Source of the DNA: Nitrospirota bacterium
Lineage (GTDB): Bacteria; Nitrospirota; Nitrospiria; JACQBW01
DNA: 34,243 bases
Direction: 5' to 3'
NCBI GenBank assembly: GCA_016178585.1
Contig: JACOTA010000066.1
Span: 1 to 34,243, forward strand
Below, piece by piece: positions 12,308 to 33,406 of the stretch (its first letter is position 1; each line of letters begins with the position of its first letter). The notes beneath the pieces were generated by a model. That model saw only the letters and a list, made by a program, of their open reading frames with translations, had not been told where the DNA came from and searched no databases. A program made the translations under genes and the position numbers.

Positions 12308-12373
12308 CCGTTATTTTCGATCAGCTCAATGGAAGAATAGAGAATAAATAGGATGAAATCAGGTCTACTGAGG

Positions 12374-12425
12374 TGATATTATAGCGTTACGTCAGTAAGC
12401 GGACTGACGAAGTAAAAATCCAGGA
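12374..12425. repeat. Hairpin repeat, copy 1
   Basis: About 52 bases nearly identical to 29812-29863. The core TTACGTCAGT (12387-12396), loop AAGCGG and ACTGACGAAGTAA (12403-12415) fold into a hairpin with a 3-base bulge, flanked by conserved TGATATTAT on the left and T-C-C-A-G-G-A on the right. It stands about 50 bases before the zinc-ribbon gene. There is no T-run, so it is not a simple terminator. Confidence 0.75.
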
Positions 12426-12473
12426 AGATGGCTTTAAAGTAAGCGGTATCTTTTTTATTACAAGGAGGAGCAT

Positions 12474-12714: not shown

Positions 12715-13140
12715 ATGGCTGGATATTCTGGATCTTCGCTTCCCAAGAAGCTCGGTCTCAAGCCGCCCATGACTTTGGTTGCCATTGATGCCCCGCAGGA
12801 ATATCGCTCATGGCTTGGTGAACTGCCTGCGGGTGTTCATATCGTTACAAAGGTTGCCAAAACGGTTCAGGCGGCGCATTTCTTCGTCACAAAGCGCTTA
12901 CTCTTGGAACAAAATCTGGCGAGATTTCGCAAACAACTGGAGCAGTCCGGGTTCGTGTGGGTCTCTTGGCCGAAGAAGGCGTCAAAGGTCGAAACAGACA
13001 TCACCGAAGACACCATAAGGGAAGTCGCGTTGCCACTCGGGCTCGTTGACATTAAAGTGTGCGCTGTCAGTGATGTATGGTCCGGGCTAAAGCTTGTCAT
13101 TCGCAAAAGTGAAAGAACAGCAGGCAATTTTTACCAGTAG
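12715..13140 (+). CDS. DUF3052-family protein
   Basis: 141 residues beginning MAGYSGSSLPKKLGLKPPMT, the recognisable opening of DUF3052, with FVWVSWPKKASKVETDITED and REVALPLGLVDIKVCAVSDV as the second conserved block. These small cytosolic proteins have no established biochemical role. The gene starts one base after the zinc-ribbon stop codon, indicating tight coupling, and is intact at both ends. Confidence 0.87.
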   Translation: MAGYSGSSLPKKLGLKPPMTLVAIDAPQEYRSWLGELPAGVHIVTKVAKTVQAAHFFVTKRLLLEQNLARFRKQLEQSGFVWVSWPKKASKVETDITEDTIREVALPLGLVDIKVCAVSDVWSGLKLVIRKSERTAGNFYQ

Positions 13141-13159
13141 CCATAGAAAGCAAGATCGG

Positions 13160-13729
13160 ATGAACACTTACATTGCCCTACTAAGGGCTATTAATGCCGG
13201 CGGTGTCAATTCACTGTCCATGAAGGACTTGGTGAAACTGCTGGAAAGTATGGGGCTCGGAAACATCAAGACCTATATACAAACCGGCAACGCTGTTTTT
13301 CTTGGCAAGGAAACCGATGCAATAGAACTTCCCGATAAGATCAAGGCCAGGATTAAGCGCAGCCATGGATTTGCCCCTGAAGTGATTCTCTTGAGGCTGG
13401 AGGAGTTGGAATGCGCGATTGCATCTAACCCTTACCCGGAAGCCGATTCAGACCCCAAAGCATTGCACCTGACCTTCTTGACCTGCACGCCAAAAGCGCC
13501 GGATTTGGCCGCTCTCGATAAAATTCGGAAAGAGAGCGAGCGCTTCGTGCTCAAGGGCAGAGTTTTTTACTTTCACGCGCCCGAAGGAGTTGCGCGATCA
13601 AAGTCGTTCTCGCGAATCGAAAAATCGCTCGGTGTTTTCGGCACGGCGCGCAACTGGCGTACAGCTAGCAGGATTCTGGAAATGGCCCGGCAGATCGCAT
13701 CAACCGACGCCGCTTTGCGGCATGGATGA
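13160..13729 (+). CDS. DUF1697-family protein
   Basis: 189 residues. MNTYIALLRAINAGGVNSLS followed by KTYIQTGNAVFLG and the end RSKSFSRIEKSLGVFGTARNW are the DUF1697 hallmarks. These proteins have a ferredoxin-like duplicated fold and no known enzymatic activity. ATG 13160 is chosen because homologues begin M-x-x-Y-I-A-L-L-R; an upstream in-frame start at 13094 overlaps the previous gene. A second, N-terminally truncated DUF1697 copy (about 60 percent similar by eye) is fused to another gene at 30410. Confidence 0.9.
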   Translation: MNTYIALLRAINAGGVNSLSMKDLVKLLESMGLGNIKTYIQTGNAVFLGKETDAIELPDKIKARIKRSHGFAPEVILLRLEELECAIASNPYPEADSDPKALHLTFLTCTPKAPDLAALDKIRKESERFVLKGRVFYFHAPEGVARSKSFSRIEKSLGVFGTARNWRTASRILEMARQIASTDAALRHG

Positions 13730-18361: not shown

Positions 18362-18441
18362 ATTTATCACCTCCTTTTTATTGTCAAGGTTTGAGTCCAA
18401 TCCCAAGACCAGCGATAGACTTCGCACCCACTTATTAATCA

Positions 18442-18519
18442 TGTCATTGCGAGCACCGAAGGGTGCGTGGCAATCTTATCGTAAAGTCTTGAGATTGCTT
18501 CACTTTGTTCGCAATGACA
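18442..18519. repeat. Palindromic dispersed repeat (TGTCATTGCGA type)
   Basis: TGTCATTGCGA (18442-18452) is exactly mirrored by TCGCAATGACA (18509-18519), and GCAATCT (18470-18476) by AGATTGC (18492-18498). This 78-bp double dyad is the familiar MITE-like element found dispersed in many bacterial genomes. One copy is seen here, upstream of the lipoprotein-DUF4331 operon. Confidence 0.82.
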
Positions 18520-18852
18520 GCTTTCTAACTCTGTTCTTGGTTATTCGGATTTATATTTTAAAAAATTGTATTCGAAGTGGAATTGGTCGCATTCGGCAGA
18601 TCAACATCCGTTCTCAAAGAAACGGCGGGTCTATTGAAGAGGTTATGAAAAAACTTCCTGGAGAAGCAAAAGCGGAGACCGAAGCGATCGATAAGCAAGC
18701 ACGAGAAAAATTAGAAGGCGCCCTAAAGCAACTCTGACTCTATTTTCTACACGAGCCAACTGGATTCATAGGAGAAGAACGCCGACTGTGACTCTGAAGG
18801 GGACTTCGAGATCGCACGGCATTAGACGGGTGGAACACGAGTTCAGAGAGAG
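18520..18852 (+). other. Intergenic stretch with a possible gene remnant
   Basis: 333 bases without a convincing gene. A forward frame from ATG 18645 to 18737 gives 30 residues rich in Lys, Glu and Ala (EAKAETEAIDKQAREKLEGA) that look like a real C-terminal helix; the frame is open further upstream into the palindromic repeat, suggesting a gene tail cut off by repeat insertion. No start site or domain can be defined. Confidence 0.25.
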
Positions 18853-20156: not shown

Positions 20157-20297
20157 AAAGCCCCCCCTGAGACCTAATACGAGATCATGGGGGAGATTGG
20201 ATTTATAGTTTGGACACTTTTTTTCTGATAGGTATTTTCTTTTGAGGCGGCAGGCCCAATACCCCAACGAAGCGTTCATTCCCACCTCAAAGCATCT

Positions 20298-20900
20298 TCA
20301 GAGTAGCCATCTTTTGCCTTTCTTGTCAATCAAAAAATCGCGTCGATCCCTCAAGCTCTTGGTCATACCAAAGGCTCCCTCGTGATTCATCACAATGAAC
20401 TCTGCCAGTTGCCTCGGATTGATTTCTTTCTTCAAGAATCCTCGCCGTTTGGCTTTTCGAAGATAGCCTTCTATGCCATCAATCCAGAGCTCAAGAACAT
20501 CTCTGAGTTTGTCCCGGAATACCGGGTCAACCGACGACATTTCTTGAATCAGGTTGTTCAAAGGACAACCGAGAGGAATGTGCTCATCGGGAGTCGCGTC
20601 AATCACTTTCTTCAGGACCTTTACAATGCCTTCAATAGGGTTGTCGTATTTTTCCAGTGGACGGATCCATCGATCAAGAACCATTTCACTCAAAGTCTCA
20701 TCTACGAGAGCGTATCCTAAAGCTTGTTTTGTTGGAAAGTGGTGAAAAAAGGCCCCTTTTGTCATTTGGGTCTTGTCGACGATTTGATCAATGCTAACCC
20801 CTTGAAAACCGCCCTTGAGGATTTCCATAAAAGCAACTTCGAGAATCCTGGCTCGGGTTTTTACCGGGTCTCTTGATCTTATTTTCGGAGATTTTTTCAT
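20298..20900 (-). CDS. TetR-family regulator, copy A (altered C-terminus)
   Basis: 200 residues. The N-terminal helix-turn-helix (SIDQIVDKTQMTKGAFFHHF) is typical TetR/AcrR, and the ligand domain carries the GCPLNNLIQEMSS segment with Cys112. The first 186 residues differ from copy B (32700) at only five positions (25, 70, 84, 140, 152). After SLRDR the two diverge: copy A ends RDFLIDKKGKRWLL, whereas copy B has the family-like FRSLHAMLKSYLDSA helix. Copy A has therefore lost its last helix, which usually helps dimerise, and may be impaired. It is divergent from the SRPBCC gene at 21017 and reads over a shared operator. Confidence 0.85.
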   Translation of the reverse strand: MKKSPKIRSRDPVKTRARILEVAFMEILKGGFQGVSIDQIVDKTQMTKGAFFHHFPTKQALGYALVDETLSEMVLDRWIRPLEKYDNPIEGIVKVLKKVIDATPDEHIPLGCPLNNLIQEMSSVDPVFRDKLRDVLELWIDGIEGYLRKAKRRGFLKKEINPRQLAEFIVMNHEGAFGMTKSLRDRRDFLIDKKGKRWLL

Positions 20901-20984
20901 ATCATATTAATTTTATCATTTTTCTTGACTACATACCAATAAGTATGTTATTTCTTTTTCTCAAGTCACTGGCCTGTGCCCAAT
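20344..20984. repeat. Duplicated TetR-operator module, copy A
   Basis: 641 bases matching 32767-33406 with roughly 93-95 percent identity by eye. It covers the TetR gene except its 3' end and the whole divergent control region up to the shared GGCCTGTGCCCAAT. Outside these limits the sequences differ, and the divergent target genes are unrelated. Confidence 0.85.
20925..20953 (+). promoter_or_regulatory. Promoter with TetR operator as its spacer, copy A
   Basis: TTGACT (20925-20930), a 17-base spacer, and TTATTT (20948-20953) form a sigma70-type promoter toward the SRPBCC gene. The dyad ACATACCAATAAGTATGT (20931-20948) fills the spacer exactly; one half-site base differs from the perfect copy at 33354. 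This placement is typical for direct TetR repression. Confidence 0.7.
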
Positions 20985-21016: not shown

Positions 21017-21544
21017 ATGCTTAAAGTATTTCTTATTGCTTTGGGAATAGTCGTTCTAGCGTTTGCAGCATTTGTGGCTTCTCGCCCTGGCACGTTTCGC
21101 TATGAAAGAAGCGGCCTGATTAATGCGAGTTCTGAAGAAATATACCCTTACTTAATTAGCTTCAAATCAGGAAGTGAGTGGAATCCGTATGAAAAAATTG
21201 ATCCAAGTATGAAAAAGAGTTACTCAGGACCTGAGACGGGCGTGGGATCGATTATGGAATTTGATGGCAACAGCGATGTGGGGTCTGGGCGACTTGAAAT
21301 TATCAATGTCATCCCTAACCAGCAAGTCGAGATCAAGTTGATGATGTTACGCCCGCTTAAGGCCACAAATATTGTTCAATATAAATTGAATCCAAAAGAT
21401 CAAGGGACTCTGTTCACATGGACAATGTCTGGTGACAATAACTTTCTTTCCAAGTTGGTCAGTATCTTCATCAATTGCGACAAAATGCTGGGCGATCAGT
21501 TTAACCAAGGCATTCAGAATCTTAAAACCGTTGTCGAATCTTAA
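21017..21544 (+). CDS. SRPBCC-family protein with N-terminal membrane anchor
   Basis: 175 residues from ATG 21017 (TTGGAGG upstream). One hydrophobic segment (3-24) precedes the START-like domain: RSGLINASSEEIYPYLISFK, SEWNPYEKIDPSMKKSYSGP and GSIMEFDGNSDVGSGRLEII are typical of polyketide-cyclase-type SRPBCC proteins, ending in a long helix. A longer in-frame start at 20873 would lie inside the TetR gene and is unlikely. Divergent from TetR copy A and driven by the operator promoter, so it is the presumed target. Ligand unknown. Confidence 0.85.
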   Translation: MLKVFLIALGIVVLAFAAFVASRPGTFRYERSGLINASSEEIYPYLISFKSGSEWNPYEKIDPSMKKSYSGPETGVGSIMEFDGNSDVGSGRLEIINVIPNQQVEIKLMMLRPLKATNIVQYKLNPKDQGTLFTWTMSGDNNFLSKLVSIFINCDKMLGDQFNQGIQNLKTVVES

Positions 21545-21640
21545 AGAAGTTGGATTCCAAAAGATTATACTGCTCCGGTTATAAAAAGCGATTTTCGAGT
21601 GGGTGGATCGTATCTGTTTTCGATGAGATCCCCAACTTGA
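21545..21640 (+). pseudogene. AHSA1/SRPBCC gene fragment
   Basis: The frame from 21545 reads SWIPKDYTAPVIKSDFRVGG then SYLFSMRSPT and stops at 21640. This is the conserved W-x-P-K...D-x-R-V-G-G...M-R-S-P core of AHSA1 proteins without its N-terminus or C-terminus. It starts at the last bases of the preceding SRPBCC gene, showing an abrupt junction. Confidence 0.68.
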
Positions 21641-21707
21641 TACCATAAAACATATGTATATTAAATCAAATAGTAACGCTGAAGGTGGTTGCAGAGTGAT
21701 TTTGTCG

Positions 21708-21781
21708 TCAAGCCAAGCGTGCAGACGGTCGCCAAGATCGCTAAAGCGTTAGATGTTCCAATGGAAGATTTGGTGAAATAA
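21708..21781 (+). pseudogene. XRE-family regulator fragment (3' end)
   Basis: KPSVQTVAKIAKALDVPMED followed by LVK and TAA is the C-terminal helix pair of a Cro/CI-type helix-turn-helix protein. Everything upstream of it is missing. It ends three bases before the next start codon. Confidence 0.62.
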
Positions 21782-21783
21782 TT

Positions 21784-22587
21784 ATGGCTACAAAAATCGA
21801 CTTAGCAGAAGAAGACAAAATTTACTATACGGCTAAAACAAAACCACAGATGGTTGAGTTTTTTGAAATTCCTTACCTTACAATAGAGGGCAAGGGTGAG
21901 CCGGCGGGAAAAATGTTTACTGAAGCAGTTCAAGCTCTATACCCATTTGCCTATGGTATAAAAAGTATATGTAAAAAATCGGGCAAAGATTTTGCCGTAG
22001 CAAAACTTGAAGGTCTTTGGTGGGTAAAATCAAATAAGCCTCCCTTAGAAGTGCCTCGGCAAGAATGGTACTGGAAATTACTTATTCGGCTCCCCGATTT
22101 TGTTACTTCAGAAATCACAGAGAAGGCAAGGGTGGAAGTCATGAAAAAGAAAAAAGTTGATTTACTTAAAGATATTCTCTTTGAGAAGATAACTGAAGGA
22201 AAATGTATTCAAGTTTTGCATATCGGTCCTTACGCCACCGAGCCGGGAACCATTGTGGAAATGAGAAAGATGATGGAATTGAATAATTTTGTCGAGAATG
22301 GCTTGCACCATGAAATTTATCTGTCCGATCCAAGATTTAAAGACATGCTTGGTTGGGGATTCATTCTCTGGCTTATTGGTTATGTTCTCGGCATAATTCT
22401 TTTTTCTTTTGTTCCGGTATCCGTGGTTGGCTGGATTATTATGCCGGTTGGCATCGCTATCACGCTTTGGGTATTACTGAAAAAAATAAAAGCAGATTCG
22501 CTTCAGTATTATGCGCTACTGGCTTTTATTTGGGTATTGATTGCTGTCGTCTTTGATTATTTTTTCATCGTTCAAGCCTTTGTATAG
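21784..22587 (+). CDS. Chimera: GyrI-like domain fused to a membrane-protein domain
   Basis: 267 residues. Residues 1-184 are a GyrI-like small-molecule-binding protein (FEIPYLTIEGKGEPAGKMFT, KLEGLWWV, VLHIGPYATEPGTIVEMRKM, GLHHEIYLSDPR); stand-alone homologues end about 15-20 residues later. From about residue 186 the sequence switches to an unrelated three-helix membrane protein (MLGWGFILWLIGYVLGIILF, GWIIMPVGIAITLWVLLKKI) that itself seems cut short at FFIVQAFV. The join is in frame near 22336. Either a deletion has merged two genes or this is a membrane-tethered ligand-binding protein. The surrounding fragments favour deletion. Confidence 0.72.
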   Translation: MATKIDLAEEDKIYYTAKTKPQMVEFFEIPYLTIEGKGEPAGKMFTEAVQALYPFAYGIKSICKKSGKDFAVAKLEGLWWVKSNKPPLEVPRQEWYWKLLIRLPDFVTSEITEKARVEVMKKKKVDLLKDILFEKITEGKCIQVLHIGPYATEPGTIVEMRKMMELNNFVENGLHHEIYLSDPRFKDMLGWGFILWLIGYVLGIILFSFVPVSVVGWIIMPVGIAITLWVLLKKIKADSLQYYALLAFIWVLIAVVFDYFFIVQAFV

Positions 22588-22830
22588 TTGGCGTGGAAAG
22601 TATGGACTGATCCCGAACTTGTCATGCGATGGTGGGGGGGACCCGATTGCTTCTCGTGTCCTTCCGTGATAATAGATTTTCGCGAGGGTGGAAAGTCCAT
22701 CGTCTGTATGCGTGCGCCAAAAGAATTTGGCGGACAGGACATGTACAGCACATGGGCATATACGAAAATCGTTCCCCTTAGTCGCTTTGAATACATTCAC
22801 AATTTGAGTGTATTAAAAAATAATAACTAA
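22588..22830 (+). pseudogene. AHSA1/SRPBCC gene fragment, truncated at both ends
   Basis: The frame continues directly after the TAG of the preceding chimera and reads WKVWTDPELVMRWWGGPDCF, IDFREGGKSIVCMRAPKEFG and VPLSRFEYIHNLS, the central part of an AHSA1 protein. The first strand is missing, and after HNLS the frame ends in a short non-family tail (VLKNNN). Only a TTG could serve as start. It overlaps in coverage with the fragment at 21545 and so comes from a different AHSA1 gene. Confidence 0.7.
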
Positions 22831-22841
22831 TAAACAAATAT

Positions 22842-23231
22842 ATGAATAAGAACATTTTCAAAAGTATCGGAACCGTCGATGCTGGTTTCATTACAGTTGC
22901 TATTTTATCAATTGGAACAGATTATGTCTTTGAATCACTCGGCATTTTTCCTCCGCAATCTAATCCTGGCGCGTATGTGACATGGATGCTTGCACTCGCA
23001 CTTTTTTATCGCAGTATCTATACGGTGGTTGGCGGGTACGTAACAGTGCTATGGGCTCCGCAAAACCCCATACGTCATGTCTACGCCCTTATGGTTCTCG
23101 GCGGAATTGGTGGTATCGCTGGGCTGATTGATGGATGGCATTTGGGCAATCATTGGTATACGGTCACCCTCGCAATAACTGGGCCACTTTTTGTGTTGTT
23201 GGGCGGGAAATTAAAAATGAATAACCCATAA
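22842..23231 (+). CDS. Small four-helix membrane protein, unknown function
   Basis: 129 residues with four predicted membrane helices (about 13-33, 45-68, 80-98 and 106-123) and polar loops containing WAPQNPIRH and DGWHLGNHW. It appears intact, beginning MNKNIFKSIGTVDAGFITVA. It is four bases upstream of the next small membrane gene, suggesting coupling. I do not recognise a named family. Confidence 0.65.
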   Translation: MNKNIFKSIGTVDAGFITVAILSIGTDYVFESLGIFPPQSNPGAYVTWMLALALFYRSIYTVVGGYVTVLWAPQNPIRHVYALMVLGGIGGIAGLIDGWHLGNHWYTVTLAITGPLFVLLGGKLKMNNP

Positions 23232-23235
23232 TTAT

Positions 23236-23472
23236 ATGGAAGCAGGCGCTTTTAATTACCTCGTCATTATTTCCGCTGCTGTCGCGAGTTTTGTTCTTGG
23301 CGGTGCGTATGTCGCCCTTTTCGGTAAGCAATTGGCGAAACTCAACGGTTCTACCGATGCGGAAACGCAAGCAAAACAAAAACCAAACCCGAAGGGTCTC
23401 ATTGGTATTTTTCTAGCAAATCTCGCTATGGCTTTTGGGCTTGCGTATTTTATCGGTTCACTCGGTAAGTAA
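23236..23472 (+). CDS. DUF1761-like membrane protein, probably truncated
   Basis: 78 residues. NYLVIISAAVASFVLGGAYV and FGKQLAKLNG resemble the start of DUF1761 proteins (usually about 130 residues with four helices). Only two helices are present, and the frame stops after AYFIGSLGK, about where the second half should start. Four bases separate it from the previous gene. A natural short protein cannot be excluded. Confidence 0.5.
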   Translation: MEAGAFNYLVIISAAVASFVLGGAYVALFGKQLAKLNGSTDAETQAKQKPNPKGLIGIFLANLAMAFGLAYFIGSLGK

Positions 23473-23776
23473 TACCCTACTTGATTAAAAGCACTTATTT
23501 CTGTGAAAAAACATTCGCAGAATCAATACGTTTCAGAATTTCGGAATAAATTCACATAGTGGTCTTAAATTAGTTTATTCCCTGTTTTTTGCAGTCAGTA
23601 ACAAATTTTCGAGTCACTGAAAATAATGGAGAATTATTTCCTAGCGTTCGTTCTGGTTCGGATGATACTGGAGAACTTAAAGAAGGCCTATGGACTTGGT
23701 TAGGCCAACCGAAGATATTGATTAATAGAGCCTTCCCGTTTTCGTAGCTGGCGAAACTTAGGCGAGAGAATTACAG
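23473..23776 (+). other. Intergenic stretch with a coding-like remnant
   Basis: 304 bases. From about 23578 to the TAG near 23745 a forward frame without a good start reads TNFRVTENNGELFPSVRSGS, DDTGELKEGLWTWLGQPKIL and NRAFPFS; the composition looks protein-coding but I do not recognise it. The stretch ends with ACTTAGGCGAGAG shortly before the next gene, a weak likeness to an integron core site. Confidence 0.28.
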
Positions 23777-24832
23777 ATGACTCTAAGGATTCACGGGAAG
23801 ACTCGATCTTGTCGTATTGGCACCCTTAGCTTTTCGTTTTTGGCGTTGTTTCTTGTCATAGGCTCATGCACCCTTACAAAACCGAACGCCAGGCCGCAAG
23901 AGATTGATTTGACTGAACGGTTTAACGTGGACGGTGCAGAACTTTATCTTTTGACCCGCGGTCAAGATCGACGTGCACCGGTGGTGCTGTGGCTTCACGG
24001 CGGCCCAGGCGGGCCGGAAGGACCGCTCTTTCAGTACTTCAATAGGGATCTCGAACGTCACTTCGTGGTTATTTATTGGGACCAGCGTGGTACAGGTCGC
24101 TCTTTCAGTCCACAATCGGATCCAGCGCGGCTGACAATCGCTCAACACATCAAAGATCTGGATGCGATTGTCGATCACCTACGGCAGAGTCTAGGTCGAG
24201 GGAAGATCGTTCTCATGGGGCATTCTTGGGGTGCGACATTGGGGGTTCTTTACACCCGTGAACACCCGGAGAAAGTTGAAGCCCTTTTTGCCATTTCACC
24301 TCTTGTCAACGGGCTCGCTGGACAACAAAAGGAGTATGACTTCGTGAGTACAGAAGCGAAGCGCCGAAGCGACTACCGAGCGCAATCGCGTCTCCTTGAA
24401 ATTGGCCAGCCACCTTATGGGACAGTGGAACAGCTGCTCGAAGTGGAGGACCTAAGCAATAAATTTGGAGGTGTGTTCCATATCCAACCAAACCGCACCT
24501 TGCTGCTGCTCCGAGGCTTTTTCGGAGGACTGGTAAAGCCGTGGGAGTTGCCGCGTTTTTTTCACGCTAACAAGGTCTCGCTGACTGTGATGAACAAAGA
24601 ACTGCTCGACCTTGATTTGTCGCGTTCCGCTCCACGTATCGAAGTCCCTGTCTACTTTCTACTTGGCCGTTACGACTGCCACGCGGACGCAACCCTCGCA
24701 GCCGAATATTTTGAAACTCTCAAAGGGCCTTACAAAAAACTCATCTGGTTCGAGAATTCTGCCCACAACATTCCGTTCGAGGAGCCCAATCAATTCAACG
24801 ATATTGTGGTTCAGGAGCTGCGGATGAGATGA
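23777..24832 (+). CDS. Lipoprotein alpha/beta hydrolase (proline iminopeptidase-like)
   Basis: 351 residues. A signal with lipobox (VIGSC, Cys31) is followed by an alpha/beta-hydrolase domain. HGGPG (74-78) is the oxyanion motif of the proline iminopeptidase/S33 group, WDQRGTGRS follows, and GHSWG places the nucleophile at Ser150. GRYDCHAD and SAHNIPFEEP supply the likely Asp and His of the triad. It would act at the envelope on a small peptide or ester. No clear partner is nearby; a 229-base gap separates it from the ExbB operon. Confidence 0.86.
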   Translation: MTLRIHGKTRSCRIGTLSFSFLALFLVIGSCTLTKPNARPQEIDLTERFNVDGAELYLLTRGQDRRAPVVLWLHGGPGGPEGPLFQYFNRDLERHFVVIYWDQRGTGRSFSPQSDPARLTIAQHIKDLDAIVDHLRQSLGRGKIVLMGHSWGATLGVLYTREHPEKVEALFAISPLVNGLAGQQKEYDFVSTEAKRRSDYRAQSRLLEIGQPPYGTVEQLLEVEDLSNKFGGVFHIQPNRTLLLLRGFFGGLVKPWELPRFFHANKVSLTVMNKELLDLDLSRSAPRIEVPVYFLLGRYDCHADATLAAEYFETLKGPYKKLIWFENSAHNIPFEEPNQFNDIVVQELRMR

Positions 24833-29801: not shown

Positions 29802-29811
29802 GCCACTTAGT

Positions 29812-29863
29812 TGATATTATTGCTTTACGTCAGTAAGCGGGCTGACGAAGTAAATTTTCAGGA
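29812..29863. repeat. Hairpin repeat, copy 2
   Basis: Matches 12374-12425 with about six mismatches. TTACGTCAGT (29825-29834), loop AAGCGG, GCTGACGAAGTAA (29841-29853). It stands 85 bases before the SnoaL-like gene. The two copies lie in the same orientation, each upstream of a small gene group that ends with a DUF1697 sequence. Confidence 0.75.
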
Positions 29864-29947
29864 GATTGACAATAAAATAGACCTGGTCCCTTTTTTTGCT
29901 TTTTTTGTGAGTTTTATAGTTAGCCGGAGGTCAAAGGAGATATTATC

Positions 29948-30409: not shown

Positions 30410-31210
30410 ATGGCGATGCGTTATTTGTTACTATTGATTCCACTAAGCCTCACAGGGTGCTCGATTGCTATGGTGAAACCGTTAGCTGAGAAAAAAACTG
30501 CTGATATCGGCGGCCCTAAACTGGAGTATGTGATGGCCGGTGAAGGGAATCCGGTTATAGTATTTTTGAGCGGTTACGGAGCCGACATCGACACTTCATG
30601 GGGCAGAATCTTTCCGGAAGTTAAAACGATCAGCATGGTCTTTGCCTATAACCGGTTTAATTATGGTAAGAGCGATAAGGTTGACGTGCCGCAAACGGGA
30701 ACCGAGATCATCGCCAACTTGTTGCCGATGAAGGAATGGGTCTGTCTACTGGAAAAATTAGGTCTGAACAATGTCAAGACCTACATTCAAAGCGGTAACG
30801 CTGTTTTTCAGAGCAAGAAAACAGGCGCTTCAGAACTTTCTGACAGAATCGGAGTCGCGATCCGGAGTGGTCATGGTTTTGCTCCACATGTGATTATATT
30901 GAAATGGGATGAGCTGAAAGATGCTGTTGAGTCGAACCCCTATCCGAAAGCGGAATCCGAGCCAAAGACCCTGCATCTGACTTTCCTGGCCTCCGTGCCA
31001 GAGAGCCCAGATCTGATCACCCTTCAAAACATCAAGAAAGATAGCGAACGATTTGCTCTCAAGGGGAAGATTTTCTACCTTCATGCGCCCGAAGGTATTG
31101 CGAGGTCAAAGCTTTTCGCACGCATTGAAAAATCGCTTGGTATGTCCGGGACGGCGCGGAACTGGCGCTCGGTCAGCAACATCAAGTCAATAGCGGAACA
31201 GATGGGCTGA
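30410..31210 (+). CDS. Chimera: lipoprotein alpha/beta-hydrolase N-terminus fused to DUF1697
   Basis: 266 residues. Residues 1-104 are a lipoprotein (lipobox SLTGC, Cys17) and the first strands of an alpha/beta hydrolase (VIVFLSGYGADIDTSWGRIF, FAYNRFNYGKSDKVDVPQTG), without the catalytic Ser. At about residue 105 it switches in frame to DUF1697 lacking its first 20-25 residues (LPMKEWVCLLEKLGLNNVKT, then KTYIQSGNAVF-like block, ending SLGMSGTARNWRS). Neither half is complete. The product would carry a normally cytosolic DUF1697 domain behind a lipoprotein signal, so it is probably non-functional or a deletion product. Confidence 0.8.
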   Translation: MAMRYLLLLIPLSLTGCSIAMVKPLAEKKTADIGGPKLEYVMAGEGNPVIVFLSGYGADIDTSWGRIFPEVKTISMVFAYNRFNYGKSDKVDVPQTGTEIIANLLPMKEWVCLLEKLGLNNVKTYIQSGNAVFQSKKTGASELSDRIGVAIRSGHGFAPHVIILKWDELKDAVESNPYPKAESEPKTLHLTFLASVPESPDLITLQNIKKDSERFALKGKIFYLHAPEGIARSKLFARIEKSLGMSGTARNWRSVSNIKSIAEQMG

Positions 31211-32699: not shown

Positions 32700-33323
32700 T
32701 TACTTTGCAATTGTCGCACTATCCAGATAACTCTTGAGCATGGCGTGCAGAGATCTAAACACTTTTCGATCTCTCAAGCTTTTAGTCATACCGAAGGCTC
32801 CCTCGTGATTCATCACGATAAACTCCGCCAGTTGCCTCGGATTAATTTCTTTCTTCAAGAATCCTCGTTGTTTGGCTTTTCGAAGATAGCCTTCTATGCC
32901 ATCCATCCAGAGCTCAAGAACATCTCTGAGTTTGTCCCGGAATACCGGATCAACCGACGACATTTCTTGAATCAGGTTGTTCAAAGGACAGCCGAGAGGA
33001 ATGTGCTCATCGGGAGTCGCGTCAATCACTTTCTTCAGGACCTTTACAATGCCTTCAATGGGGTTGTCGTATTCTTCTAGTGGACGGATCCATCGATCAA
33101 GAACCATTTCACTCAAAATCTCATCTACGAGGGCATATCCTAAAGCTTGTTTGGTTGGAAAGTGGTGAAAAAAGGCCCCTTTTGTCATTTGGGTCTTGTC
33201 GACGATTTGATCAATGCTAACGCCTTGAAAACCGCCCTTGAGGATTTCCGTAAAAGCAACTTCGAGGATCCTGGCGCGGGTCTTTACTGGATCCCGTGAT
33301 CTTATTTTCGGCGATTTTTTCAT
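32700..33323 (-). CDS. TetR-family regulator, copy B (intact)
   Basis: 207 residues with helix-turn-helix SIDQIVDKTQMTKGAFFHHF and ligand domain containing GCPLNNLIQEMSS (Cys112). It has the complete C-terminal helix FRSLHAMLKSYLDSA that copy A lacks. It is divergent from the PhnB-like VOC gene across a control region with a perfect operator. The pairing with VOC here and with SRPBCC in copy A suggests the same inducer controls both targets. Sensing through Cys112, as in the electrophile sensor NemR, is speculation. Confidence 0.9.
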   Translation of the reverse strand: MKKSPKIRSRDPVKTRARILEVAFTEILKGGFQGVSIDQIVDKTQMTKGAFFHHFPTKQALGYALVDEILSEMVLDRWIRPLEEYDNPIEGIVKVLKKVIDATPDEHIPLGCPLNNLIQEMSSVDPVFRDKLRDVLELWMDGIEGYLRKAKQRGFLKKEINPRQLAEFIVMNHEGAFGMTKSLRDRKVFRSLHAMLKSYLDSATIAK

Positions 33324-33406
33324 ACCGTATTCATTCTATCATTTTTCTTGACTACATACCAAAAGGTATGTTATTTCTTTTCTAAAGTCGCTGGCCTGTG
33401 CCCAAT
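32767..33406. repeat. Duplicated TetR-operator module, copy B
   Basis: 640 bases matching 20344-20984, in the same orientation, about 12.4 kb away. It includes the TetR coding region except its 3' end, the operator and the promoter. The sequence beyond each border is unrelated. Confidence 0.85.
33348..33376 (+). promoter_or_regulatory. Promoter with perfect TetR operator as its spacer, copy B
   Basis: TTGACT (33348-33353), 17-base spacer, TTATTT (33371-33376). The perfect dyad ACATACCAAAAGGTATGT (33354-33371; 7-bp arms, AAAA centre) fills the spacer. Conservation between copies supports operator function. Confidence 0.75.

Follow-up and report, generated by a model that had tools for sequence, protein, structure and literature searches.

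A run of truncated genes in a Nitrospirota contig, probably a relic of imported accessory genes, and its link to Paceibacteria

Introduction

The 2.2-kb stretch considered here is closest in kind to a decaying imported accessory region (a pseudogene cluster), and the window around it (the whole stretch of DNA that was analysed, an entire contig of 34,243 bp from a genome of 2.45 Mb in 82 contigs) shares with such regions truncated homologues, few point mutations, an odd phylogenetic affinity and joins that lie inside coding sequence. It differs from them in that part of its truncation, the tail of an XRE-family gene, appears to have been present already in the donor lineage. The nearest individual counterpart is Kaiserbacteria contig JACRFL010000002.1 (L010), which carries ICMT, an XRE tail, a GyrI-like gene and the start of a membrane-protein gene. 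The order XRE tail, GyrI, membrane protein is common to L010 and the window; however, GyrI is intact in L010, its membrane protein is cut after ~15 codons and the upstream gene differs.

Layout of the region and its flanks

The stretch is a run of cut genes, flanked on the left by an intact SRPBCC gene and on the right by an intact gene for an alpha/beta-hydrolase. There are six pieces, namely an AHSA1 core, an XRE tail, a GyrI-like gene fused in frame with a membrane protein, a second AHSA1 fragment and half of a DUF1761 gene, and a complete-looking orphan gene sits between the last two. The features are as follows.

21017 to 21544, plus strand: intact SRPBCC or polyketide-cyclase-like gene, left flank (open reading frame; Pfam Polyketide_cyc2, E 3e-5, full profile span 3-142)
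21545 to 21637, plus strand: AHSA1a, an AHSA1 core of ~29 codons that lacks both ends (Pfam AHSA1 positions 19-42 of 125, E 0.14; PDB 2lf2, E 0.1)
21638 to 21692, no strand: unassigned 55 bp separating AHSA1a from the XRE tail (no match found)
21693 to 21781, plus strand: 3' end (~28 codons and stop) of a small XRE-family regulator gene (HTH_3 positions 35-55 of 55)
21784 to 22335, plus strand: GyrI-like gene that retains its start codon but not its final ~18 codons (87% nucleotide match to Kaiserbacteria)
22336 to 22584, plus strand: membrane-protein gene short of ~5 codons at its start and ~30 at its end, continuing the GyrI frame (intact homologue in G002)
22588 to 22830, plus strand: AHSA1b, without its own start codon and with the C-terminal half missing (Pfam AHSA1 positions 8-66 of 125, E 8e-9)
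22842 to 23231, plus strand: 129-aa membrane protein of no family, apparently complete (open reading frame; no Pfam or NCBIfam family)
23236 to 23472, plus strand: N-terminal half of a DUF1761 gene (DUF1761 positions 2-67 of 123)
23589 to 23747, plus strand: 52-codon open frame, coding nature unsupported (no family or DNA match)
23777 to 24832, plus strand: intact alpha/beta-hydrolase gene, right flank (Pfam Abhydrolase_1, E 4e-20)

All pieces from AHSA1a to DUF1761 lie on the plus strand. A sequence-only reading had described a fragment cluster with these identities and few internal frameshifts; profile searches and intact homologues bear out its coordinates with small corrections, and the recognised pieces contain neither frameshifts nor internal stops. 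The region is single-copy, with no second copy found in its own genome, a whole-region DNA search against plasmids gave no match and Rfam and tRNA scans of the window returned nothing.

The XRE tail and the GyrI-like gene

The XRE tail matches HTH_3 positions 35-55 of 55 over window positions 21695-21778 (E 7e-4), and its region is 82-91% identical at the nucleotide level to XRE genes and tails in Paceibacteria, where 53 of the 384 sampled genomes hold matches to the tail or gene; one relative (L016) is 91% identical over 76 bp. Among the other genomes of the window's class, 57 in all, none gave a DNA match to the XRE tail or to GyrI. Window positions 21730-22335 are 87% identical over 606 bp to L010 of Kaiserbacteria genome G058, in a match that starts inside the XRE tail, upstream of GyrI, and the GyrI part is 89% identical in amino acids. 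The XRE stop and the GyrI start are 2 bp apart in the window and 4 bp apart in the aligned L010. Because Kaiserbacteria shows this adjacency with near-identical spacing, it evidently predates the arrival of the piece here and was imported rather than made in the window genome; on these nucleotide comparisons, the XRE tail and GyrI piece evidently belongs to the Paceibacteria gene pool.

A scan of the GyrI-membrane frame against genome contigs gave two relatives, L010 and a Woesearchaeota contig (L011), and the chimera was not found in viral contigs. Import of a Patescibacteria-type module would be the simplest reading, with one close GyrI relative found and a direction of transfer that we infer from distribution alone.

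The GyrI/membrane-protein join

The frame at 21784-22587 encodes 267 aa, with GyrI joined in frame to the membrane protein. L010 encodes a full-length GyrI (203 aa, ending ...DPRKTPPQKMKTILRQPVKSKK), with the membrane-protein start 3 bp past its stop (MTKQFLKDALGCGFI, then a stop). Since both genes share a frame in L010, the deletion stays in frame; relative to L010, the loss at the join is 75-78 bp. The GyrI-like profile is covered over positions 2-139 of 155 in the window (E 2e-7), as against 2-154 in the intact Kaiserbacteria protein. The membrane part is 72% identical in nucleotides to an intact 121-aa gene of G002 (L003:1386-1751), a genome of the window's own family, and homologues also occur in Paceibacteria L015 and L022. 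The presence of the gene in G002 means that the membrane protein need not be Patescibacteria-derived; closest relatives outside the window's own class were found for the XRE tail and GyrI.

Truncation relative to intact homologues was found for GyrI, the membrane protein, AHSA1b, DUF1761 and XRE, and comparison of the aligned sequences thus presents neighbouring pieces as cut genes and the GyrI/membrane join as an evident in-frame deletion relative to the Kaiserbacteria spacing. Of the joins listed in the sequence-only reading, the GyrI/membrane fusion was evidently made locally, and the XRE tail and GyrI were already adjacent in Kaiserbacteria. Of the microhomology that it proposed to look for, the GyrI/membrane join shows at most one base.

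Between the window and Kaiserbacteria, GyrI has dS 0.47, dN 0.059 and dN/dS 0.12. Pairwise counts with the Woesearchaeota outgroup place ~13 nonsynonymous changes on the window branch and ~11 on the Kaiserbacteria branch, with no excess of amino-acid change on the former. The membrane part has dN/dS 0.07 against G002, a comparison in which dS is near saturation. The purifying signature in GyrI suggests that the trimming is young and that most of the divergence arose under selection; with no acceleration on the branch, the truncation would be too young for any loss of selection to show.

The remaining pieces

The AHSA1a match is weak when taken alone, and AHSA1b is 53% identical in amino acids to a Paenibacillus SRPBCC gene. 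As the two overlap in the profile, they are the remains of two different genes, not of one split gene. For the 129-aa protein, the only relatives found are ~24-25% identical, and searches of plasmids and viral contigs gave no match. DUF1761 homologues in Paceibacteria are open frames of 135-216 aa, compared with 78 aa in the window. The 52-codon frame, previously called an unrecognised coding remnant, had no homologue in family or DNA searches, so that this label is unsupported. Close DNA relatives of AHSA1a, AHSA1b, the 129-aa gene and DUF1761 were found in none of 384 Paceibacteria genomes, 58 genomes of the class or the plasmids, and with no close parents found, the joins other than those flanking GyrI cannot be placed to the base.

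Origin of the region

The region is best explained as the remains, no longer functional, of accessory genes that were gained by horizontal transfer and then trimmed by a few short deletions, a reading to which we give a probability of roughly 0.6. A Patescibacteria-type segment would have entered a non-Patescibacteria genome, in a region already rich in accessory genes, and a few short deletions would then have removed the ends of genes no longer needed, probably by illegitimate end joining with little or no microhomology. The XRE tail of the donor lineage may itself be the leftover of a small integrative element composed of a large serine recombinase, a divergent XRE gene and cargo, with the recombinase and the front of XRE lost. 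The earlier interpretation had offered recent deletions or active recombination; the first is supported by the dN/dS values and the in-frame GyrI/membrane deletion, and the second is not borne out, as the window holds no integrase, attC pair or tRNA.

XRE genes, serine recombinases and tRNA-Ser in Paceibacteria

Paceibacteria XRE loci were collected by two further searches and 36 fetched regions. Among 65 XRE places, 29 begin near the first residue and the rest start between residues 7 and 53, a few of these truncated starts being contig-end cuts. The genes and tails precede varied cargo by a few bases (cytidine-deaminase-like, VOC, cupin, HNH-like and others, names read from the sequence by eye with no family search). 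Of the truncated tails, at least seven follow a tRNA-Ser gene at a distance of 0-100 bp, two of them (L027 and L040) at 0 bp. A motif made of the tRNA-Ser end and GTTRGGAA (CCGCCAGTTNGGAA) had 50 matches in 37 of 286 genomes, versus 4 for the reversed control pattern; several matches coincide exactly with the end of a tRNA-Ser gene, and others with decayed ends that resemble those of a tRNA. The site CCGCCAGTTRGGAA at these tRNA-Ser ends contains AGTTGG or AGTTAG.

Two loci, L180 and L182, encode a large serine recombinase of 482 and 493 aa, respectively (Pfam Resolvase, Recombinase and Zn ribbon), whose gene end falls inside the tRNA-Ser-end site, and an inverted copy of the site precedes the gene start. 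Among the 22 intact XRE genes for which 400 bp or more of upstream sequence is available, 10 have this recombinase beside them, always divergently, compared with 2 of 30 truncated tails, one of them divergent (Fisher P 0.002), in a sample drawn from draft genomes by similarity to one XRE type, with loci that are not independent. Among 18 control loci (DUF1761 and membrane-protein neighbourhoods), there was one weak partial recombinase match.

Candidate integrative elements, with divergent XRE and cargo behind, are L180 (3111-4670), L182 (1130-2767), L108, L048, L038 and L080; in L182, the recombinase 3' end that overlaps the tRNA-Ser 3' end reads HFPNWRRG. In L125, L127, L129, L134, L140-L142, L144, L148, L151 and others, CCGCCAGTTRGGAA at tRNA-Ser ends is followed by a hairpin-rich repeat of ~100 bp, which in several loci (e.g. 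L125) matches the final ~40 codons of the recombinase gene; in L127 it is a ~97-bp palindrome.

Taken together, the XRE tails, the recombinase and tRNA-Ser look like a family of small integrative elements, of which no published description was found in the openly accessible literature, a search result that is not proof of absence. It is possible, and we put it forward tentatively, that Paceibacteria harbour undescribed minimal integrative elements in which the end of a large serine recombinase gene overlaps the 3' end of tRNA-Ser, an XRE repressor lies divergent to it and the cargo (for example GyrI, VOC, cupin, deaminase or HNH proteins) can be exchanged; that loss of the recombinase leaves an immobile unit of XRE tail and cargo, spreading to other phyla; and that the window holds one exported module.

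Joins and alternative explanations

A site-specific recombinase might have strung cassettes or fragments together, in which case the joins would be strand-exchange points and not deletion scars. A motif test, as proposed in the sequence-only reading, was run over nine joins. In its composition-corrected form, 4 of the 9 joins have AGTTGG or its complement no more than 15 bp away (three in the 2.2-kb stretch, one at 30720), a score matched by none of 1000 random position sets, and related Paceibacteria XRE tails stand at tRNA-Ser ends whose CCGCCAGTTRGGAA site holds AGTTGG or AGTTAG, with XRE genes divergent to a serine recombinase. However, AGTTGG was picked post hoc, the joins having been chosen first, the plain shared-6-mer test gave P 0.066 and the AHSA1a occurrence overlaps a conserved tryptophan codon. 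The breakpoints of 32 truncated XRE genes in Paceibacteria showed no enrichment of AGTTGG either, their best 6-mer being CCGCCA (the tRNA end), and the window lacks both recombinase and tRNA. The common motif that the sequence-only reading had proposed to look for at the joins is a weak lead, and strand exchange as their cause seems unlikely.

An error of short-read assembly or binning, by which pieces of several organisms were joined, is suggested by a draft in 82 contigs and by a 600-bp piece 87% identical to another phylum. Against it, the adjacency of the XRE tail and GyrI recurs in an independent assembly, pieces of 90-800 bp between intact genes would be unusual for a chimera and the contamination estimate is 0.05%. 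In addition, the left part of the contig at 14.2-20.2 kb, where genes for TPR and DUF4331 proteins, a ChrR-like anti-sigma factor and a sigma factor were recognised by eye, has counterparts in many genomes of the class, which supports correct binning. Artefact of this kind is, on balance, quite unlikely. Beyond that part, the accessory genes begin at ~20343, with a truncated TetR copy:

20298 to 20900, minus strand: TetR gene, C-terminal codons cut at ~20342 (near-copy of 32700-33323, 94% identical across 642 bp, with homology ending at 20343)

As similar joins occur here and at 30410-31210, the pattern extends beyond the 2.2 kb.

The 267-aa fusion and the other frames could also be working, newly fused genes, as the fusion is in frame, keeps its start codon, has no stops and carries a purifying signature over both parts. 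Nevertheless, GyrI has lost the end of its domain and the membrane part ~30 C-terminal residues, the pieces next to them are missing a start or half of a domain and the same fusion was absent from the other genomes searched, so that a functional role is most improbable. An integron cassette array in decay, which small same-strand accessory genes of cassette-like kinds might recall, is very unlikely, since a core-motif scan found no attC-like pairs around the pieces and no integrase was recognised on reading the list of open reading frames of the 34-kb contig.

Other features of the contig

The TetR gene and ~80 bp of divergent promoter are duplicated at 20343-20983 and 32766-33406 (94%), facing an SRPBCC and a VOC/PhnB-like gene, respectively, the left copy being cut at its 3' end. 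The frame at 30410-31210 is a second in-frame chimera, in which a lipase-like N-terminus runs into DUF1697 (profile 17-137), and a DUF1697-like paralogue lies at 13094-13729. At 20226-20338 on the minus strand, a conserved promoter and leader (TTGACA...TATCCT-like, then GAGGC...GCCTC) stand upstream of the sigma-factor operon; the leader also precedes a truncated-haemoglobin-like gene (L008) and other genes of the class (L004, L005), and has no Rfam family. A mobile-element remnant was considered for this segment and rejected because of these further occurrences. A 75-bp intergenic repeat at 12367-12441 and 29805-29879 is 80% identical between its copies, with a hairpin TTACGTCAG...CTGACGAAGTAA. 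A repeat of ~140-160 bp at 18381-18541 recurs at 96-100% identity on three further contigs of this genome, in one case at a contig end. The right contig end (34104-34239) matches contig ends in G005, with copies in G040 and G023, and is probably a mobile or repeated element that breaks assembly.

Comparison with known systems

By itself, the stretch is a case of ordinary genome decay after gene import, and its value is that of a tracer. An XRE tail that seems meaningless in one genome is a recurrent scar in Paceibacteria, tied to a serine recombinase and tRNA-Ser, and the more novel lead is the element behind that tail, the window itself being modest. If the element family is real, it would offer a testable route by which reduced bacteria gain and pass on accessory genes, also to other phyla.

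Set against the Paceibacteria serine-recombinase element, the window has no recombinase, no tRNA-Ser and no CCGCCAGTTRGGAA site. Searches by tblastn with the large serine recombinases R1-R3 gave no match in the window loci (14.2-34.2 kb), the window contains no tRNA and none of the AGTTGG occurrences listed for 20-34 kb has a CCGCC flank. Lacking the recombinase and the tRNA-Ser site, the window falls outside the element family. What it does have is an XRE of that family followed by a cargo gene, in the form of the XRE tail and GyrI, and the tail is a member of the XRE family whose genes stand divergent to the recombinase in the elements of L180, L182 and L108. The window thus holds at most an eroded module derived from this family of elements.
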